This document shows, in pieces, positions 5,684 through 21,751 of a stretch of DNA of 24,036 bases. The number at the start of each line of letters is the position of its first letter. The stretch's first letter is position 1. The notes beneath the pieces were generated by a model. It did not search any database and was not told the DNA's origin. It worked only from the letters and a program-made list of their open reading frames with translations. The DNA lies in IMG/VR virus record IMGVR_UViG_3300034012_001790, positions 1 to 24,036 of that record; one strand, 5' to 3'. A program made the position numbers and the translations under genes. Source of the DNA: a virus.

Positions 5684-7678
5684 CTACTGAGGCGGGGCCG
5701 GCGGCATCCCCTCGCCGCCGAAAGCCTGCTGGTTCTGGTCGGGCATCGGCTTACCGTCCTGCGGGCGGGCAGCGTTCGCCATCCCGAGCTGCTGGGCAGC
5801 CATAGCCTGCTGCATCATCGCCTTCTGCTGCTCCTGCTGTTCCAGCCAGTCAAGTCCCTGGAGGTACAGCAGGATCGCTTCGCGCACCGCTTCAACGGCA
5901 AGCTCAAACTCCTGCGTCTTAGCGAAATCCTGAAAGATCGAACGGTGAACGGCAAGGTTGTCAATCCCTGCCCGTGGCATCCACGACGGAACATCCATCC
6001 CGTCGGGACCGGCCTGAAGGGGCTCCGCGAGAAACACTTCGGGGCCGGCAAGGATCTTCTGAATGGTGCGGTGCGCCCGGGCCACGTCCAGCTCGTAGGA
6101 GTCCACCAGGTCAGCGGCGGTTCCCTGCTCAATGGCAGCCATAGCCTTCTCAGGCTGAACCCAGCCGCGATCCGCGTAAGCCATCACGCGCTGCTCAAGC
6201 GCCTGGCGGGTGCGGGGCTCAATGCTTTCGGGGAACACCGTCACATCGACTTGCGAGCGAAGCTGAGCGCCCGTGAAGTCCTGGATGCTTTCCGGGCCAA
6301 ACCTGCCGTTGATATGGATAAGGCGAGGCTCGGAGTAGTGTTCGGCCACCAGCGTCAGGCAGTGACGCATCAGGCGCGAATGAAACTCCGCTAGGCGCTG
6401 AACGAAAGCCTGGCGAGCGGCGTTGTCGCGCTCAATCAGCACCGCCAATGCGCGACCGGAAGCATCAGTCGGCGTGTCGTTCTGGGAGGCGATGCGCTGC
6501 ATATCTCCAAGCGCCTCGCTCTTAAGCTGTGAAAGCTCCTGCGGGATCGGCGGGGTAGGCCGCCACTCAGGCTTCAAGCCATTGACGGGGTTGTAGACAA
6601 ACACCGCTCCGGGCTGATCGGTGAGCCGCTGACGCTTCGGGAACGCGCCGAGGGGAGCGAACACCTGCGGCATCAGCGCCATGTTCTTCCACTCAATCTG
6701 CTTATTGGTCGCGTCGTTGATCGTGCGCTGGGCATCCAGAAGGTGCCGGACAAGTCCCTGATCGCGGTCAGAGTCCGGGTCAAGGATGTAACTGAGCTTG
6801 TGCAGCACCGGCTCATCGACAACACCGCCCTTGCCGTCGGAGAACGGGTAAGCCTCCGGGGGGGTAATGATCTTGCCGTTAGCGATGCAGTACCGGCGTC
6901 CCTCGGGGTACTCCGCGCAGGGGCGCTCCAGGTAGTCGGTAATCATTACGAGGTCACGCTTGTCCTTATGCTCGCCCACCACGTACTCCGTGGAGGCGTC
7001 CGGCGTGACTTTCGTGCCGGGAATAAAGCCGGGCAGCGCCTTGACCTGCTCAACGCTCATGGCTCTACGCACGATGTACCAGCGGGCATCCTCAAAGCGC
7101 ACACCCGGCTCCCAGCCAACCTCGTTCGGGCCAAGAACCTCGATCCGCACATCGCCCAAACCGACAACCTGCCCGTTCTCGTCCTTCACGAACGGGGGAA
7201 CACTTGAATCCCAGTACGGCCAGGCGAAGCCCTCATCGGCTACGACGGCGTAAGTGACGACCTGCTCGGTGACGGTGCGAATATGCCACTCATCAAAGCC
7301 GTAGTAGGCAACCTTCTGGGCAACGGCAGCAGCCGACACATCATCCGGGTCGCTGGTAGACGGGTTCACCGAATAGGAGGGAACACGCTGCGTAGCGTAG
7401 GCGACCTCCTGCCGGACAATCGGCCCGATCAGGTTGCGGGTCGTACGGACCCGGTGACGGGGCTTGCCGCCCTCGCCAAAGAGAACACCCTGCTTGACCA
7501 GCCAGTTCTCCTTGTTGCGGTAGACGTACTGGTTGCCGCGCCAGAAGCTAAGACACTCGTTGCGCTCAGGTGCCTTGTCGTCAATCTGCTTCTTGCCCTT
7601 GTCGATGCGCTCGCTGATCGCCTTCGGAACATCCTGATTGAGCCCAATGGCTTTCTTCAGGTCGTCAATACCCGCCAT
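5684..7678 (-). CDS. Portal protein (664 aa)
   Basis: The protein forms the dodecameric DNA channel at one vertex of the head. Evidence is the size, the location between terminase and scaffold, and a podovirus-type portal pattern near the N-terminus: ECLSFWRGNQYVYRNKENW, then RTTRNLIGPIVRQEVAYAT and NPSTSDPDDVSAAAVAQKVA. The central region has WKNMALMPQVFAPLGAFPK and FVYNPVNGLKPEW, and the C-terminus is a Gln/Met-rich helical tail (EQQEQQKAMMQQAMAAQQ) ending in a Pro-rich stretch. I chose ATG at 7678, which overlaps the upstream stop as TGATG. A GTG one codon earlier is also possible. The long C-terminal helix suggests a barrel as in P22-like portals; this is inference. Confidence 0.85.
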   Translation of the reverse strand: MAGIDDLKKAIGLNQDVPKAISERIDKGKKQIDDKAPERNECLSFWRGNQYVYRNKENWLVKQGVLFGEGGKPRHRVRTTRNLIGPIVRQEVAYATQRVPSYSVNPSTSDPDDVSAAAVAQKVAYYGFDEWHIRTVTEQVVTYAVVADEGFAWPYWDSSVPPFVKDENGQVVGLGDVRIEVLGPNEVGWEPGVRFEDARWYIVRRAMSVEQVKALPGFIPGTKVTPDASTEYVVGEHKDKRDLVMITDYLERPCAEYPEGRRYCIANGKIITPPEAYPFSDGKGGVVDEPVLHKLSYILDPDSDRDQGLVRHLLDAQRTINDATNKQIEWKNMALMPQVFAPLGAFPKRQRLTDQPGAVFVYNPVNGLKPEWRPTPPIPQELSQLKSEALGDMQRIASQNDTPTDASGRALAVLIERDNAARQAFVQRLAEFHSRLMRHCLTLVAEHYSEPRLIHINGRFGPESIQDFTGAQLRSQVDVTVFPESIEPRTRQALEQRVMAYADRGWVQPEKAMAAIEQGTAADLVDSYELDVARAHRTIQKILAGPEVFLAEPLQAGPDGMDVPSWMPRAGIDNLAVHRSIFQDFAKTQEFELAVEAVREAILLYLQGLDWLEQQEQQKAMMQQAMAAQQLGMANAARPQDGKPMPDQNQQAFGGEGMPPAPPQ

Positions 7679-7935
7679 CACTCACCCAGCATTTCTTTAG
7701 CCATCGTGAAATCCTCATCGTCGTCAAACTCCACGAAATGCCGGGGCAGCTCAACGTCAAGAGCCTCCTGCGCCTGAACAGCATTGGCGGTCATGGGGTC
7801 TTGAATCCTCTGGAGCAGCGAGGCGCGGTCAGCAGCCGCAGCTTCACGCTCCCGCTCAATCAGGCGGGAGAAAGCAAACTGCTGATATGCGATAACAGCA
7901 AACGCCAGGGCGAGCCCGGCAAAAAGATAAATCAA
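7678..7935 (-). CDS. Small membrane-anchored protein between terminase and portal (85 aa)
   Basis: It begins with one hydrophobic helix at residues 2-18 (IYLFAGLALAFAVIAYQ), followed by a charged helix (SRLIEREREAAAADRASLLQ) and an acidic end (VEFDDDEDFTMAKEMLGE). The start is TTG at 7935, overlapping the preceding stop as TTGA; no better start is in frame. The helix-plus-coiled-coil layout resembles phage spanins or other small envelope proteins, but no partner gene is visible. Position inside the packaging-head block argues for a virion or assembly-site role. Function unknown. Confidence 0.6.
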   Translation of the reverse strand: MIYLFAGLALAFAVIAYQQFAFSRLIEREREAAAADRASLLQRIQDPMTANAVQAQEALDVELPRHFVEFDDDEDFTMAKEMLGE

Positions 7936-8300: not shown

Positions 8301-8527
8301 CAGTAATCCTCCATTTCGTAACCCTGCTTCACCGCAAACTCCCGCGTCTTAATCGCGGCAGTGACAGCAAAACCCATTGGGTCATTCAACATCCTTGACC
8401 GGACTTGGCCCGAGGCCGGCGCGAACACCGCCCGGTAAAGCCCGCCCCTTACCGGAACGAACACGGAACAGGCACCAGCATCCAGCAGATCCAACGCCTC
8501 GTCGTACTGAGGGGTAAACAGGTTCAC
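8300..8527 (-). CDS. Small unknown protein downstream of the terminase (75 aa)
   Basis: The start is GTG at 8527, overlapping the terminase stop as GTGA. A longer in-frame extension upstream into the terminase exists but is less likely, because every junction here is a minimal overlap. The product reads NLFTPQYDEALDLLDAGACS, then VFVPVRGGLYRAVFAPASGQ, and ends KQGYEMEDY. The central beta-like section and short length suggest a compact single domain. No family recognised. Confidence 0.6.
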   Translation of the reverse strand: MNLFTPQYDEALDLLDAGACSVFVPVRGGLYRAVFAPASGQVRSRMLNDPMGFAVTAAIKTREFAVKQGYEMEDY

Positions 8528-10095
8528 CCCAGCTCGCCCATAGGCCCAGACTGAATCTGGTACTCCAGCATTTCGTTCTCCCACTCCGGGTCGTAGGTGT
8601 CGGGAATCCACCCGAGCTGCTGGCGGGGCTCCTCCATTTCCTCCAGCGGCTTCCACGCCCGAGCCATCAGCGCGTACCTCAAGGCATCCAGGCGGTGATC
8701 GTTGCCCTTGATTGGCTTGATAACCCCATCGTCGCGGGACTCAAGAGCGTAATCGTCTGCCTCAGCGCGAAGGCCACGGCACTCAGGATTAACCCTCAAC
8801 CGCCCCTGCTCAATGCGCTGCTTGACCTGGAAAAACCCAGCCTCAAAGTTGTTCTGCCCGTTCTGGGTGGGGATGCCCTGACGAATCAGCTCCGACTGCA
8901 CCGTGTCGCTATTGACCTGCGCCCGCTGGCGGGAAGCAGGGTCAATGACGTAAATGCACTCGCGGATCCCCCACTTCTTATTTGTGCGCTTGATCGCTTC
9001 GGCGTACTCAACGGGGGTTAGATCCTGAAGCAGTACCTCGTCAAAGACGTAGGCCACGTTGTCCTTATCGAATCCGACCCAAACCATCGCCGCGTTTCGG
9101 ATTCCAGGGTCAATCCCCACAACAACGTCCCACACCTGCCGATTAGCAGCAGACTCGTTCCCCGACCATTTCCTTGACTGGCTGGTGTACCAGTCCGTCC
9201 ACCCACCCTGCCGTCCCTTCTTGTTAGGTGGATACGGGCCGGGGGTAACGCACTTCTCAAACTCGGGATAAGCCAAACCTCCAATGTCAATGAAGTCACC
9301 GAACTCCACCGCTCGCCGCCAAACGTCCGGCTGAGCATCCAAAGCGGCCTTAACGCCGTCCTTGCTCAAGGTCGGGTTGTCGTGGATCGAACCCCGGATA
9401 ACGGTTATGTCCGGGCTCTCACGGTTCTTGTAAATCTCGCGGCGAACCCAAGTCGTGTTCGTCGTCAAGGGAGTCATGGCGAACATCTCAAAGCCGTCGT
9501 ACTGCGCCAGGCGCACCTTGCACTCGCGGCGAATCTCCCACGGCGGCGGCTCGTCATACCCGACAAGGTGCATCGAGGAACCAGCAAACATTGAGGGATC
9601 CTGCACGTAGGTCTTGAACTCAATCCACGACCCGTTAGCGAACTGAAGCATCCCAAGCTGCTTGTGATACGCCTTAGCGAACGAGTTGCCCTTCAGTGCC
9701 TTCGGGGGACACCACAAACGAAGCTCGGGAAGAATCACAGTTTCAAGCACCTGGAACGACGGACACACCAGCCGGCACTTAGTACCCGGATAATCCGTGT
9801 TCACGCCCGGAGTCCACTTCTTGAACTCCATCATCCACTCAGGCACCCACTCCGGATCCAGGCACTCAACAATCGTCCTGACCAGCAGAGCAGTCGTCTT
9901 ACCGAACCTGTTGCCCGCAAACGCCGCGATAATGCGCGTCTGAGCGTTCCAGAACGCCACCTGCTGCTCATTATCGGCGCGAACCTTATAGAGCGGATTA
10001 CCTTCAATCCGCTCGTCAAGCTCCTGAAGAAGCCTCTCAGCTTCCTCACGCTGCTCAGGGGTTAGCTGATCCAGCACCCCCTCAGGAACCTGCAC
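8524..10095 (-). CDS. terL: Terminase large subunit (523 aa)
   Basis: This is the ATP-driven DNA-packaging motor and headful or site-specific nuclease. Visible motifs are Walker A GNRFGKTT at residues 61-68, Walker B LVGYDE at 177-182, and an RNase H-like nuclease with acidic residues at Asp329 (VVGIDPG), Asp385 (IYVIDPASRQ) and Asp470 (HRLDALRYALM). Full length is normal for the family. The start is GTG at 10095, sharing a base with the upstream stop (TAGTG). It lies upstream of the portal, as in most tailed phages. The likely small subunit is not adjacent; a candidate is at 15567-16064. Motif content makes the call secure. Confidence 0.95.
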   Translation of the reverse strand: MQVPEGVLDQLTPEQREEAERLLQELDERIEGNPLYKVRADNEQQVAFWNAQTRIIAAFAGNRFGKTTALLVRTIVECLDPEWVPEWMMEFKKWTPGVNTDYPGTKCRLVCPSFQVLETVILPELRLWCPPKALKGNSFAKAYHKQLGMLQFANGSWIEFKTYVQDPSMFAGSSMHLVGYDEPPPWEIRRECKVRLAQYDGFEMFAMTPLTTNTTWVRREIYKNRESPDITVIRGSIHDNPTLSKDGVKAALDAQPDVWRRAVEFGDFIDIGGLAYPEFEKCVTPGPYPPNKKGRQGGWTDWYTSQSRKWSGNESAANRQVWDVVVGIDPGIRNAAMVWVGFDKDNVAYVFDEVLLQDLTPVEYAEAIKRTNKKWGIRECIYVIDPASRQRAQVNSDTVQSELIRQGIPTQNGQNNFEAGFFQVKQRIEQGRLRVNPECRGLRAEADDYALESRDDGVIKPIKGNDHRLDALRYALMARAWKPLEEMEEPRQQLGWIPDTYDPEWENEMLEYQIQSGPMGELG

Positions 10096-16551: not shown

Positions 16552-17008
16552 CCAGTCTCCTCAATGCCTGACGGATCGCCTTCACCCCACCCTGAGCGGG
16601 GTCAAGGATGTTGATTACCTCCGGGGTTAGGCCGCGCTCCACGTAACCGAGAAGCCTGCGGTCGCGCTCCTCTTGTGTTTCCAGGGTTGCGTCACCGAAC
16701 ACGGGGGCGGTGCGATGAGCGTCCACTTCCCGCTCCAGCAGCTCCACCAGGACGGTTGCCCGGTAGCTGAAAGCCTCATACGGGTTCTCACGTACAGGCT
16801 CGTAGAGCAGGGAAGGGTCAGCGCCGGGGCCGATGCTCAGGTTCTCCGCCGAGGGGGAGCGTCGTTCCATCCCCGCTCCTCTTTGGGCGGTGAGCAGCTT
16901 GGCTTGGCGCAGCGCCTTGTCGAGCCTATGCCCGAGGCTGAGGCGCTGGCGGCGCATCACCGTCGCCTGGTGCTGGAGAACACGGAAGGCTTTGTGCTGG
17001 TCACTCAT
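16544..17008 (-). CDS. Unknown protein (154 aa)
   Basis: The N-terminus is a long basic helix (AFRVLQHQATVMRRQRLSLG, then DKALRQAKLLTAQRGAG), the middle is Pro/Ser-rich, and the C-terminus reads RLLGYVERGLTPEVINILDP and QALRRLDA. No family recognised. ATG at 17008 overlaps the methyltransferase stop by eight bases. The long amphipathic helix suggests oligomerisation. It lies between a methyltransferase and a zinc/HTH protein. Confidence 0.6.
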   Translation of the reverse strand: MSDQHKAFRVLQHQATVMRRQRLSLGHRLDKALRQAKLLTAQRGAGMERRSPSAENLSIGPGADPSLLYEPVRENPYEAFSYRATVLVELLEREVDAHRTAPVFGDATLETQEERDRRLLGYVERGLTPEVINILDPAQGGVKAIRQALRRLDA

Positions 17009-18305
17009 TCTCTACCGCCATTATCCGCCGGCCGATCCATTCAGCCACATTGCTCACGACCCCGTTGCCACAAGCTGCGTAGCGTCGAGAGTCCGGGGTC
17101 TTGTCGCCATCCACTGCCGTCCAGCCGTCCGGCCAGGACATCAGGCGCTCGCACTCGGTAGGTGTGAGGCGGCGAACCGAGGACTGGGCTACGAGGTGGT
17201 TGGCTTGGGCGCTGTTGTCGTCGGGTCCGCCAGCCATCCGGTCAAGCGCATTGGCGAGAACGTAGGTTTCCGTCTCAGGGTCAAACCGATGGTTGCCCGT
17301 CATCAGACACTTGGCGGTCGGCTCCGTAGGGACAAACAACCCAGCACCACCGAGAGCGTGCTGGTCCTCGAGCCCCATCTTTGTCCCGTAGGCCGTGTTT
17401 AGAGTTGGCGCAACTTCAGCAGGCCAAGACTTTCGCTGCTCGACGGGTGCGTTCACAAGGTTCTGGCACTCATCTCCAGAAGGGCCAGCACTTCCTGAAG
17501 TGCCCCATTTTCTAGTTATTGGTGGCGAAACGACGATTTGCTCGTCTAACCCGTTATGACCTGTTTGCTGCCCTGAACTTTTGATCAGTGAACGCATCAC
17601 GGTTTTTCCGCTAGATCCCTCAACGCCGTCTCCAGTTCCACAGGAAGCGTCCTGCCACGAGCATCGGCCCGCCTCAAGATCCCCTTCGCCGCCCGTGCCG
17701 AGAGCGCGTACCGCTCGCTCACCGTCGTCTCCAAGACATCCGACAATGAACACTCGACGGCGGCGTTGGGGGACTCCGAAGTATCTTGCGTCAGCCACCC
17801 GCCAGGAAAGGCCATACCCGATTTCGGCCAGCGTTGAGAGAACGATTCCAAAGTCTTTTCCGTTGGCAGAGGAGAGGAGCCCAACGACGTTTTCAACGAG
17901 GAGCCAAGTTGGTCGAAGCTCATCTGCGATCCGGGCGAACTCAAAGAACAGTCCTGACCGCTCGCCTGCGAGTCCTGCCCGCTTGCCTGCAACTGAGAGG
18001 TCTTGGCAGGGGAATCCCCCGCAGAGGAGATCGACACTAGGGGGCCATCCGTCCCTCCCCTTGTCGGACTGTTTGCCGCCTGAAGGGTCGGCGCCACTCC
18101 TGTCTCCGCGTAGATTCGGCTTGAGGTTGGCACTCCGCTTACCAACCCCCCGGACGTCATCGTAGATTTCGGCGTCGGGCCAATGCCATCGCAGCACTCG
18201 CCGGCACCACTCATCGACTTCTGCCTGCCACAAGACGGACATGCCTGCCCGCTCAAGCCCGAGGTCAAGTCCTCCGACTCCTGAGAAGGTCGAGCCGACA
18301 TTCAC
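17001..18305 (-). CDS. DNA (cytosine-5) methyltransferase (434 aa)
   Basis: The protein transfers a methyl group from AdoMet to cytosine C5. Motifs in order are I FSGVGGLDLGLERAG (residues 7-21), IV GGFPCQDLS with catalytic Cys100, VI ENV (138-140), VIII QRRRR (180-184), IX RLTPTECERLMSWPDGW and X GNGVVSNVAEWIGRRI near the C-terminus. The target-recognition region is about residues 210-360. I chose GTG at 18305, overlapping the upstream stop as GTGA; the GTG at 18329 is less likely. No cognate restriction enzyme is seen, so it is an orphan, probably protecting phage DNA from host enzymes. A second frame is open through most of motifs I-VIII. Confidence 0.95.
   Translation of the reverse strand: MNVGSTFSGVGGLDLGLERAGMSVLWQAEVDEWCRRVLRWHWPDAEIYDDVRGVGKRSANLKPNLRGDRSGADPSGGKQSDKGRDGWPPSVDLLCGGFPCQDLSVAGKRAGLAGERSGLFFEFARIADELRPTWLLVENVVGLLSSANGKDFGIVLSTLAEIGYGLSWRVADARYFGVPQRRRRVFIVGCLGDDGERAVRALGTGGEGDLEAGRCSWQDASCGTGDGVEGSSGKTVMRSLIKSSGQQTGHNGLDEQIVVSPPITRKWGTSGSAGPSGDECQNLVNAPVEQRKSWPAEVAPTLNTAYGTKMGLEDQHALGGAGLFVPTEPTAKCLMTGNHRFDPETETYVLANALDRMAGGPDDNSAQANHLVAQSSVRRLTPTECERLMSWPDGWTAVDGDKTPDSRRYAACGNGVVSNVAEWIGRRIMAVENE
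17597..18301 (-). CDS. Nested ORF in another frame of the methyltransferase gene (234 aa)
   Basis: An ATG at 18301 lies four bases after the methyltransferase GTG (GTGAATG), in a different frame, and stays open for 234 codons. It would be translated into a Ser-rich protein ending in motifs that I recall as recurring in phage proteins: WPKSGMAFPGGWLT, then CSLSDVLETTVSERYALS and KGILRRADARGRTLP. The pattern S-L-S-x-[IV]-L-E-T ... G-I-L-R-R-A is familiar from many phage hypothetical proteins next to or inside dcm-like genes. This may be a true overlapping gene or a side effect of conserved methyltransferase codons. A function is not known. Confidence is for a real product. Confidence 0.4.
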   Translation of the reverse strand: MSARPSQESEDLTSGLSGQACPSCGRQKSMSGAGECCDGIGPTPKSTMTSGGLVSGVPTSSRIYAETGVAPTLQAANSPTRGGTDGPLVSISSAGDSPAKTSQLQASGQDSQASGQDCSLSSPGSQMSFDQLGSSLKTSLGSSPLPTEKTLESFSQRWPKSGMAFPGGWLTQDTSESPNAAVECSLSDVLETTVSERYALSARAAKGILRRADARGRTLPVELETALRDLAEKP

Positions 18306-18448
18306 TCGTCGTCCTCTTTCGGCGGCCACCAGTCAGCGTCCAGATCGCCCCGCTCCTCCAGTCGCTCCCACTTCTCCCACTCACGTTCGACGGAGGCGTT
18401 CCAGTCGGTCAGCTCGTCACGCGGCGGATCAAAGAAGTCGTCCCTCAT
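18302..18448 (-). CDS. Small acidic Trp-rich protein (48 aa)
   Basis: ATG at 18448 overlaps the muralidase stop as ATGA. The product is MRDDFFDPPRDELTDWNASV, then a charged helix (EREWEKWERLEERGDLDAD) and WWPPKEDDE. Five Trp residues in 48 are notable. Its stop precedes two competing starts, GTG (methyltransferase) and ATG (nested frame). No family recognised. Confidence 0.6.
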   Translation of the reverse strand: MRDDFFDPPRDELTDWNASVEREWEKWERLEERGDLDADWWPPKEDDE

Positions 18449-18774
18449 CTGACCCTCCCCCAGCACGACCACGCCGAGAAACCGACGTCGCGCGCCACGC
18501 GGTTTGCCACGTTCATCTGCTGGCGCCACGTAGCGTCACCTGCGTTGCCGGGGTAGTGGCGGGGCCGCCAGCCATCCCACGTAGCGTGGAACATGCCGAG
18601 CCCGCCCTGGTAGGTCGGCCCCTGGTGGGACCAGTTGATTCCCCAGGCACCCCGACCGGGCTGCTCGCACTTGCCAATGGCAATCCAGATCCGCCAGTTG
18701 TTCGGCATCTTTGCCTCGGCAGCGGGAACCAGCAGCACCATTGAGAGTGCGCCTATGGCGACGAGTCGCTTCAC
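18445..18774 (-). CDS. Secreted Rpf-type transglycosylase (109 aa)
   Basis: Residues 1-21 are a signal peptide with positive start, hydrophobic core (LVAIGALSMVLLV) and an AEA cleavage site. The mature part matches the resuscitation-promoting-factor/transglycosylase-like domain: WIAIGKCEQPGRGAWGINW with catalytic Glu37, then YQGGLGMFHATWDGWRP and MNVANRVARDVGFSAWSCWG. Cys36 and Cys104-105 region may form the typical disulfide. Enzymes of this family cleave peptidoglycan outside the membrane and are typical of Actinobacteria. The start is GTG at 18774 in a GTGA overlap with SSB. It lies in the early operon rather than next to lysis genes, which is unusual. Confidence 0.8.
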   Translation of the reverse strand: MKRLVAIGALSMVLLVPAAEAKMPNNWRIWIAIGKCEQPGRGAWGINWSHQGPTYQGGLGMFHATWDGWRPRHYPGNAGDATWRQQMNVANRVARDVGFSAWSCWGRVR

Positions 18775-19124
18775 CAGTCGGGCGCGTCGTTAGCCCGCTC
18801 AACACGGTCAAGGGTGCGGGCCACGTTGTCAGCGACGACGACAACCTTGCTGCGCTTCTGCCCGGTTTCCTTGTCCTCCCAGGTGTCCTGCTGGAGCCTG
18901 CCGGTGACTACGACGCGGCTGCCCTTGTCCAGTCCTGCCGCGGCGACCTGCTCGCGGTCCCAACTGATTACGTCAAACCAGTTGGGGATGCTGGTCCACT
19001 CGCCGGAAGCATCGTCCTTCTTGCGGGCGTTCCAGCAGATCGAGAACTTGACTGGCCCGTTGCCGTTCTGCTCCGGGGGCCGGGCCAGGTTCCCTTCCAA
19101 CGTGACTGTGTTCGGACTTCTCAC
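18771..19124 (-). CDS. ssb: Single-stranded DNA-binding protein (117 aa)
   Basis: It has an OB-fold SSB pattern: NTVTLEGNLARPPEQ, FSICWNARKKD, NWFDVISWDREQVAAA, KGSRVVVTGRLQQDTWED and SKVVVVADNVARTL. It coats ssDNA during replication and recombination. I chose GTG at 19124, six bases after AGGAGG; the earlier ATG at 19163 lies inside the upstream gene and is less likely. The usual C-terminal DDDIPF tail for host protein recruitment is reduced to NDAPDW. It forms a module with the ATPase, nuclease and annealing genes upstream. Confidence 0.85.
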   Translation of the reverse strand: MRSPNTVTLEGNLARPPEQNGNGPVKFSICWNARKKDDASGEWTSIPNWFDVISWDREQVAAAGLDKGSRVVVTGRLQQDTWEDKETGQKRSKVVVVADNVARTLDRVERANDAPDW

Positions 19125-19134
19125 TTCATCCCTC

Positions 19135-19866
19135 CTATTGGTCGTTCCATAACTCGTCGCCACTAGGGGCGAACGCTTCGTGTACGCCGTCGTTCAGGCG
19201 AACCCAATGCTTCGGGGGGCGCCTACCGATGCGGCACTTCTCCCACCACAAGGAGCGCCTGGTGGTGTCCTTGTCGCGGGGGTGCGCCCCCATGTGGATC
19301 AGGATTTCCGGCACTGCTGCCATCGCCCCGGATCCCCGGTAGCCGCCGCTCTTGTTGCGGTGGTGCAGGATCACGATGGCGGTGTCCGTGTCCCTGGCGG
19401 CCTGCTGGAGTCCGGCGAGCAGCTTGGTTACCTCGTCTGAGTCGTTCTCATCGCCGCCCGGCCAGAGGGTGCGAAGGCTGTCCAGCACGATCAGGTCGGT
19501 GCCTAGCTCGCTGCCGGCCTCCTCCACTTCGTAGAGCTGACGTTCAAGATCAAAGCCCGCCGATGTGATCCCGACTCGTAGGTGTTCGGGGTAGCCGAGG
19601 CTGTCCAGGCGGCGGTGTACCTCGCCGTGTCCGTTCTCAGCGTCAAACACGGCGACCTTCCTGCGCTTGGCGATAGTGAAGCCAGCGGCATCCTCGCCTT
19701 CGCAGACACCGGCAGCCAGAGCCAGCGCGAGGTAGGACTTGCCTTGCCCCGGCTCACCGACCAGCATGGTCAGGGCTCCCCTGGCGCAGAAGCCTTCCAC
19801 TACCCACGGGACCGGGGGTGGCGGCGTGGCTTTCAGGTGTTCGTTGTCCAGCCATTCGACGTTCAC
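19135..19866 (-). CDS. RecA-fold ATPase, RepA/AAA_25-like (243 aa)
   Basis: Walker A is GEPGQGKS (residues 37-44), and Walker B is LIVLD (125-129), with VAVFDAENGHGE (71-82) as the usual strand-2 acidic motif. ILHHRNKSGGYRGSGAM (about 165-181) is the typical sensor/loop region of RepA-like helicase or RAD55-type ATPases. The likely role is a replicative helicase, helicase loader or recombination mediator on ssDNA; I cannot choose between them. The start is GTG at 19866 (GTGA overlap). It is followed by SSB. Confidence 0.8.
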   Translation of the reverse strand: MNVEWLDNEHLKATPPPPVPWVVEGFCARGALTMLVGEPGQGKSYLALALAAGVCEGEDAAGFTIAKRRKVAVFDAENGHGEVHRRLDSLGYPEHLRVGITSAGFDLERQLYEVEEAGSELGTDLIVLDSLRTLWPGGDENDSDEVTKLLAGLQQAARDTDTAIVILHHRNKSGGYRGSGAMAAVPEILIHMGAHPRDKDTTRRSLWWEKCRIGRRPPKHWVRLNDGVHEAFAPSGDELWNDQ

Positions 19867-20471: not shown

Positions 20472-20737
20472 GCCGCCACCGGCTCGGTTACCTGTTCGGT
20501 CAGTCGCCGGAAACCCAGGTCGCTGAGGTCGCTGAGGATGTAGCTGTGAACCTCGCCCTCGCTGCCGGCGAAGCTGTAAGCCACGGCACCGGGACGCTGG
20601 CGAATGTTCACGACCCCCTTGTGCGGGCCGGGTGAGTTAGCGTCGTGCCTGGCCCACAGGACGGGCGGCACCTTGTCCCATAGTCCTTCGCCTTCAGCCC
20701 CGTCGAACGGGCCGCCGATCAGCCGGAAGGCGATCAC
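20468..20737 (-). CDS. Small unknown protein (89 aa)
   Basis: GTG at 20737 (GTGA overlap with the nuclease). It starts IAFRLIGGPFDGAEGEGLW, a pattern (RL-x-GGP-x-DG) I know from uncharacterised phage proteins of Gram-positive and actinobacterial phages. The middle has RHDANSPGPHKGVVNIRQR, and the C-terminus SYILSDLSDLGFRRL. Function unknown. Confidence 0.65.
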   Translation of the reverse strand: MIAFRLIGGPFDGAEGEGLWDKVPPVLWARHDANSPGPHKGVVNIRQRPGAVAYSFAGSEGEVHSYILSDLSDLGFRRLTEQVTEPVAA

Positions 20738-21513
20738 TTCTTCGCCGCCTTGATCCGCGCCTCACGATCCTTAGCGGAGCGGTACTGGTTCAACAGAACC
20801 TCAAAGTCCTCAAAGGTGTCGTGGCTTTCGTGGAGCTTCACGCGCCCGGACTCGGGGATGTGGACGATGGCGCATATCTCCGGCTTGCCGTCCGGGTAGC
20901 CGGCCTCAGCTTCGGCAGCCTTGTAAGCGGCAAGCTGGGGGAAATGCTGGTCGGGATAAACGCGCTTGCTCGTTTTCCAATCCAGCAGCGCGAGCTTGCC
21001 CTTGTGGTCGCCCGCCGCAAACCTGACGATGGCATCGAAGGTTCCGACGTAGCGGAACTCCACGTTGGCGGTGCGAACCTCCTGCGCCACGAACTCGGGC
21101 TCGTTGTCGAGCAGCCACTTGGCTACCCCCTGAATGCGCTTGCGATCCTCGGGCTCAAAGTCCTGCGGGTCCGGTGCCTTGCCCGTCAGGCCGTAGTCCT
21201 CAATGGCCTGGTGGACGAGGGTTCCCCGGTCGCCGGCTTTCATGAGGACGCTGTTCGGGTTCTCGTACTTCTTGACCTGTTCGTAGAACTGATCGAAGTC
21301 GCTGCCGTAGCGCAGCGCGTCCCGCTCCCGATCCCACGTATAGAAGGCGGCCTGCGCCCCCATCTTGAACCCGTACCAGGCACCCGCAGAGAACGGAACC
21401 GGCACCGTCGCCTTGACAACGGTGGTCACGGACGGGAAATCTGTCTGCCACTCGCCATCCACCTTGACCTCGTAGGCGTGGGCATCAGGGTCAAACTTGA
21501 TCTCAGGACGCAC
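20734..21513 (-). CDS. PD-(D/E)XK exonuclease, RecB/Cas4-like (259 aa)
   Basis: The catalytic core is visible: GTFDAIVRF with Asp160, LALLDWKTSK with Asp178 and Lys180, and HFPQLAAYKAA with the usual Gln/Tyr motif. His101 (GTLVHQAIEDYG) fits the N-terminal His motif of RecB/Cas4-like nucleases. It would resect dsDNA ends for the annealing protein encoded upstream. I chose GTG at 21513, with AGGAG five bases before it; an ATG at 21588 is in frame but overlaps the attP-like repeats. It is downstream of the integrase after a 237-base gap. Confidence 0.8.
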   Translation of the reverse strand: MRPEIKFDPDAHAYEVKVDGEWQTDFPSVTTVVKATVPVPFSAGAWYGFKMGAQAAFYTWDRERDALRYGSDFDQFYEQVKKYENPNSVLMKAGDRGTLVHQAIEDYGLTGKAPDPQDFEPEDRKRIQGVAKWLLDNEPEFVAQEVRTANVEFRYVGTFDAIVRFAAGDHKGKLALLDWKTSKRVYPDQHFPQLAAYKAAEAEAGYPDGKPEICAIVHIPESGRVKLHESHDTFEDFEVLLNQYRSAKDREARIKAAKK

Positions 21514-21751
21514 ACGCACTCCTCTCGTCTTGTGACGACCACTCCAGTCGTGGGGCAAACCTGGAACCTGCCCCATATGCTGCCCCATTCACGACCGACC
21601 CGGACGTACTGAGATACCCGCTTGTCGTGACCTGCCCCATACATGAAGTGTTCATCACGACTCGGACGAATCCTTCAACGGCGGGCTGTGACCGGATCAC
21701 ACGACCGATCCGGTCACGACATACAACTATCGGGGAGTTAGCTGTAATCAC
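21503..21751 (-). CDS. Possible 82-aa ORF across the attP-like gap
   Basis: GTG at 21751 shares a base with the integrase stop (TAGTG), as in the terminase junction, and the frame reads to TGA at 21503 inside the nuclease gene. The product (ITANSPIVVCRDRIGRVIRS, ... NGAAYGAGSRFAP) has no family and a repeat-driven composition. It could be incidental. It is listed because the junction type matches its neighbours. Confidence 0.25.
   Translation of the reverse strand: MITANSPIVVCRDRIGRVIRSQPAVEGFVRVVMNTSCMGQVTTSGYLSTSGSVVNGAAYGAGSRFAPRLEWSSQDERSACAS
21514..21750. other. Candidate attP region next to the integrase
   Basis: This gap follows the integrase stop. It contains an 11-8-11 inverted repeat (21688-21698 and 21707-21717, arms GTGACCGGATC) that has the size of a tyrosine-recombinase core site, three of four CTGCCCCAT repeats, and several TCACGAC/GTCGTGA motifs. 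I did not find a tRNA-derived core here. Confidence 0.45.

Follow-up and report, generated by a model that had tools for sequence, protein, structure and literature searches.

The window, by which is meant the whole 24,036-nucleotide stretch of viral DNA analysed here, is a tailed-phage fragment that encodes an SU10 adaptor (2027-2953), a P22-like portal (5684-7681), a terminase (8524-10095), a transglycosylase-like protein (18445-18774), an SSB (18771-19163), an AAA ATPase (19135-19866) and a PD-(D/E)XK nuclease (20734-21588). Its minus strand carries a cytosine-5 (C5) DNA methyltransferase gene, here called alpha (17001-18305), with a likely GTG start at 18305 in an open reading frame (ORF) that opens at 18329. 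The product matches PF00145 (E = 1.6e-58) and TIGR00675 (E = 2.7e-57) and has motifs I, IV (PCQ), VI (ENV), VIII, IX and X, the last two (RRLTPTECERLMSWP and RYAACGNGVVSNVA) lying in the alpha frame at 17070-17180 on the minus strand. Motif VIII (QRRRRVF; 17748-17768, minus strand) marks the point at which the constrained frame changes from that of alpha to that of a second ORF nested within the gene. This ORF, here called beta, occupies 17597-18301 on the same strand in the +1 frame relative to alpha, begins with ATG and encodes 234 amino acids. A sequence-only reading of the window had proposed such a 234-codon frame inside the methyltransferase gene, and the frame exists, with the three motifs named for it (WPKSGM, SLSDVLET, and GILRRADARG) all found.

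The two parts of beta differ in character. Residues 1-183 (17753-18301, minus strand) are predicted to be disordered; the frame is open there and its synonymous sites are constrained, with alpha largely dictating the amino acids. Residues 184-232 (17606-17752, minus strand; CSLSDVLE...YALSARAAKGILRRA...LP.EL..AL) are assigned to a C-terminal three-helix domain on the basis of codon-position entropy, AlphaFold2 (AF2) pLDDT and an hhalign match to the in-frame segment by which ordinary C5 methyltransferases enter their target-recognition (small) domain, hereafter the TRD-entry segment. Upstream of both starts lies a small gene of 75 amino acids (18302-18529, minus strand) that matches nothing in Pfam or PHROG. 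Its TGA overlaps the alpha GTG and adjoins the beta ATG (GAGTGAATG), so that a single GAGGA (18312-18316, minus strand), judged from sequence context to be a possible ribosome-binding site, may serve both. Translational coupling of this small gene with the two starts is likely, and the adjacent GTG and ATG are also kept in the closest relatives (L008 and L009).

Taken singly, the open frame in the window is weakly surprising and could be chance, as 5.8% of synonymous-codon permutations of alpha leave the +1 frame open for 234 codons. Across 92 non-redundant loci, there are no +1 stops in some 4,400 codons immediately preceding motif VIII, where 1-2% per codon would be expected, and stops in the +2 frame of the same loci are not consistently depleted. 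Among 38 loci chosen without reference to the nested frame, the +1 frame is open upstream for a mean of 110 codons, compared to 41 in permuted sequences, and the +2 frame for 20 on average (Fisher p about 2e-23). The cleanest evidence of selection comes from the frame-specific depletion of stops and from the loci picked without regard to the nested frame. Permutation that preserves the alpha protein gives z of about 0 upstream of the nested start and of -6 to -32 inside it, values that are read as descriptive because the selection tests share phylogeny. The drop in synonymous variation of the methyltransferase coincides exactly with the start of the nested ORF. A comparison of synonymous-site variation in both frames, which the sequence-only reading had suggested, finds constraint in alpha from the nested start onward. 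The pattern that would have spoken against a gene, an unconstrained second frame broken by stops in most homologues, is the opposite of what is seen: the +1 frame is constrained and open beyond permutation.

Codon-level patterns reveal which frame is constrained. In the 92 loci, variability tracks the nested frame from LSDVLE onward, past motif VIII; at columns of conserved A, G, L, P, and R, nested position 2 (alpha position 3) is invariant while nested position 3 is free. Alleles of phage P1, counted without two sequences that carry an insertion, show 17, 10, and 6 variable sites in the C-terminal domain at alpha positions 1, 2, and 3, which correspond to nested positions 3, 1, and 2. In the reverse permutation, with the nested protein preserved, alpha is constrained and stop-free through the first ~40 codons of the domain and is then merely kept open. 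Since alpha is also constrained under this test, the region is truly dual coding. The strongest independent conservation in the nested protein is found in its last ~50 residues. The conservation that had been claimed for upstream motifs such as WPKSGM comes in part from conserved residues of the methyltransferase itself. The idea that there is no gene, and that the frame looks conserved merely through methyltransferase conservation in GC-rich DNA, can point to upstream motifs such as W..SGM that mirror the conserved L..LGYG of alpha and to the marginal length of the window ORF by itself, but is scarcely credible given the frame-specific loss of stops, the codon-position switch, the same open length in AT-richer loci and the synonymous permutation, which rejects chance or a by-product of alpha conservation. 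The nested frame is almost certainly a selected protein-coding gene.

Relatives of the gene occur in hundreds of phages. The nested protein matched 222 phage records by tblastn and lay in the +1 frame of a methyltransferase in every record checked. Matches to the protein or its profile occupy the +1 frame of a methyltransferase at 168 of 168 loci drawn from phages, IMG/VR and GTDB genomes, and free-standing members of the family number zero among these. The proposal that an overlapping gene pair recurs across phages is thereby borne out, and the question of whether matches to the product are all nested is answered in the affirmative. Phage-type methyltransferases fetched with an alpha profile carry the nested domain in +1 in 76 of 79 cases; one of the exceptions ends at a contig edge and the other two belong to a different methyltransferase subfamily. 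All 38 of the new non-redundant phage methyltransferases chosen without using the nested frame carry it, as does phage P1, whose nested ORF of 162 amino acids is intact. The domain is absent from 71 of the 88 ordinary chromosomal methyltransferase loci sampled. A search of 295 Enterobacteriaceae genomes gave matches in 21, and those read out are of the window/P1 type with no obvious EcoHK31I system among them.

Several variants lie near this family. Clostridium methyltransferases (L280, L288, L291, L292, and L296) have a shorter nested +1 version, CSLLQILEPEVDEKYYLSEEKTQQLLSRL followed by a stop, which may represent an early stage of the domain or a reduced one. In enterobacterial L362, L363, and L373, the second half of the nested domain is altered (CAGLIPRQNRRP) and the recognition region of alpha is very short. 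In the dmt gene of an Escherichia albertii P1-like plasmid (L340, 177-3218), an in-frame insertion follows the catalytic GGTPC immediately and precedes the nested start; with its FTAGHMVLCKNGYKPIEDVCPGDYVVSHLGR and YLAGAYVGDGY, this insertion resembles an intein with a homing endonuclease. Similarly long dmt genes occur in L344, L352, and L357.

The product itself has no significant Pfam or NCBIfam family and no sequence relative in the PDB. It does match PHROG 16143 (E = 2.7e-15) and, weakly, PHROG 1008. Both families are annotated without mention of overlapping genes, PHROG 1008 as "DNA methyltransferase", and the profile of the latter holds the nested domain and an end resembling motifs IX-X within one chain. 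These matches suggest that nested-frame products probably already sit under a methyltransferase label in some phage annotations. No prior description of the nested gene in phages was found in the literature searched; split C5 methyltransferases as a kind are known, and it is their reach into a large share of phage methyltransferases that is apparently undescribed there.

How beta would be made is indicated by the position and context of its start. The distance from the nested start to motif VIII, which lies downstream, is mostly about 70-107 codons (178 in the window group). The start is usually an ATG soon after an upstream stop, and strong Shine-Dalgarno (SD) matches are found at 28% of nested starts compared to 9% of control positions. 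The start position and SD enrichment point to internal initiation rather than to a frameshift at motif VIII, and beta is accordingly predicted to be made from its own start. A programmed frameshift would move alpha ribosomes by +1 (or -2) directly past motif VIII, giving a short chain of the catalytic domain and the LSDVLE domain and no separately initiated nested protein. The sharp change of constrained frame at motif VIII would suit such a mechanism, as would the moderate amino-acid constraint and predicted disorder of the nested frame upstream of it. However, the open stretch of the nested frame reaches 70-180 codons back from motif VIII, much further than in permuted sequences; the synonymous constraint sets in at the nested start rather than at the junction; and ATG starts cluster just past the upstream stop, enriched for SD. 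A frameshift is therefore quite unlikely.

An AF2 model of beta built on 55 nested sequences leaves the N-terminal part (~180 residues) disordered, with pLDDT of about 50, and renders the C-terminal domain as a confident three-helix unit spanning residues 186-232, with pLDDT of about 97. The counterpart of this domain in ordinary C5 methyltransferases is the stretch that directly follows motif VIII, and those enzymes read it in frame. The hhalign comparison with the in-frame TRD-entry segment gives a probability of 94%, E = 8.6e-8 and a score of 40, and the best of 200 shuffled comparisons scores 18 (one 4-column artefact excluded). The homology spans about 30 columns, and the second half of the domain (GILRRA..RGK.LP) aligns less clearly. 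A single-sequence match links the nested domain to L172, where the in-frame segment reads GDILESDVDQKYTISDKLWAGHQRR, and the solved C5 methyltransferases 3lx6 and 3me5 align across the in-frame TRD-entry segment. Foldseek and VIA-align searches with the AF2 model gave no meaningful match and none to a C5 methyltransferase, an outcome that says little for a helical domain of ~50 residues. None of the phage-type alphas has the TRD-entry segment in frame; the segment is found in one frame or the other.

The arrangement of the remaining motifs varies among loci. Motifs IX and X are in alpha at 65 of the 92 loci, including the window and P1; motif IX is in the nested frame and X in alpha at 4 (L010, L011, L050, and L052); and at about 13, alpha stops early and motifs IX-X are in a further ORF, with the remainder being cut or without a layout call. 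Motifs IX-X are within the nested frame itself in L045 and L071, and outside the alpha ORF in L003, L012, L016, L037, and others. Alpha ends about 85-90 codons past motif VIII in L014, L017, L018, L020, L037, and L047, with a recurring LHES or LHQS at the C-terminus, and where alphas of this type were checked, motifs IX-X are in a separate downstream ORF, forming a three-ORF methyltransferase layout.

Together with the M.EcoHK31I layout seen in some loci, the homology of the domain to a piece of the methyltransferase makes a second-subunit role the better reading, and the nested protein is probably the beta subunit that completes a split cytosine-5 methyltransferase. One stretch of DNA would thus encode an enzyme of two polypeptides. 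Alpha would supply catalytic motifs I-VIII, and in the window also IX and X, and would be without the TRD-entry segment. Beta, starting at its own ATG adjoining or inside the alpha gene, would supply that segment from the +1 frame as its structured C-terminus. Beta would most likely bind alpha and complete the hinge between the catalytic and recognition domains, so that both chains would be needed for methylation, as is reportedly the case for M.EcoHK31I. The arrangement probably arose when indels shifted the TRD-entry segment of an ancestral methyltransferase into another frame. Dual coding, the nested start, domain homology and frame exclusivity are established from the sequences themselves, and we infer that beta is translated, binds alpha and is needed for activity.

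A true nested gene could instead do other work, for instance as a regulator of alpha, a brake on methylation or a countermeasure to host restriction. A long disordered N-terminal part joined to a small helical domain would suit a regulator, and SSB-, ATPase- and nuclease-type genes lie near by. Against this, the domain has its homologue in a methyltransferase segment, does not occur together with an in-frame copy in alpha and was found at none of the 168 loci away from a methyltransferase, and some loci carry motif IX in the nested frame. Such a function is fairly unlikely, and the roles in tuning methylation or blocking host defences raised by the sequence-only reading lack specific support.

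A broader reading, towards which we lean with some reserve, is that a large part of phage and prophage C5 methyltransferases, including P1 Dmt, are obligate two-chain enzymes whose second chain is nested and largely unannotated. The TRD-entry segment would have gone out of frame once, been kept by overprinting and then drifted between several ways of splitting the enzyme, in which the nested chain lacks IX, carries IX or carries IX-X, or a third ORF is separate. Common practice is to annotate, clone and test phage cytosine methyltransferases as single genes. Should they require a second, nested chain, constructs of alpha alone or recoded versions may test inactive, and methylation by phages such as P1 would have to be looked at afresh. 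The family would also be a widespread and directly testable example of overprinting, with a portion of an enzyme hidden in a different frame of the remainder and several evolutionary intermediates at hand.

Known C5 methyltransferases provide both likenesses and differences. The layout at these loci resembles that of M.EcoHK31I, whose smaller polypeptide (beta) is reportedly read from an alternative frame within alpha; Lee, Kam and Shaw are said to have found in 1995 that it is needed in vitro. M.EcoHK31I is an alpha/beta cytosine-5 methyltransferase (YGGCCR) in which the larger polypeptide has motifs I-VIII, X, and the TRD, and the smaller only motif IX (PMC3404938). L010, L011, L050, and L052 share this motif split, IX being nested and X staying in alpha. 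In the window and P1, by contrast, the nested frame stops before motif IX, which is in alpha. The window is therefore not strictly of the M.EcoHK31I type; its beta would work like that of M.EcoHK31I, a kinship drawn from layout rather than alignment. The genes discussed here also differ in being viral or prophage genes without a known partner nuclease. M.AquI is a C5 methyltransferase of two subunits, with the break falling in the variable region (PMC3404938). The split after motif VIII recalls it where motifs IX-X lie outside alpha (L003, L012, L016, L037, and others), as do L045 and L071, with IX-X in the nested frame; the M.AquI subunits, however, are successive pieces, whereas here one piece is nested inside alpha. 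Finally, E. coli Dcm-type and other single-chain C5 methyltransferases (TIGR00675/PF00145) use one frame and one chain, and in Dcm-type enzymes it is the in-frame TRD-entry segment DILE..V..KYILT...W..L.. that corresponds to the nested domain.
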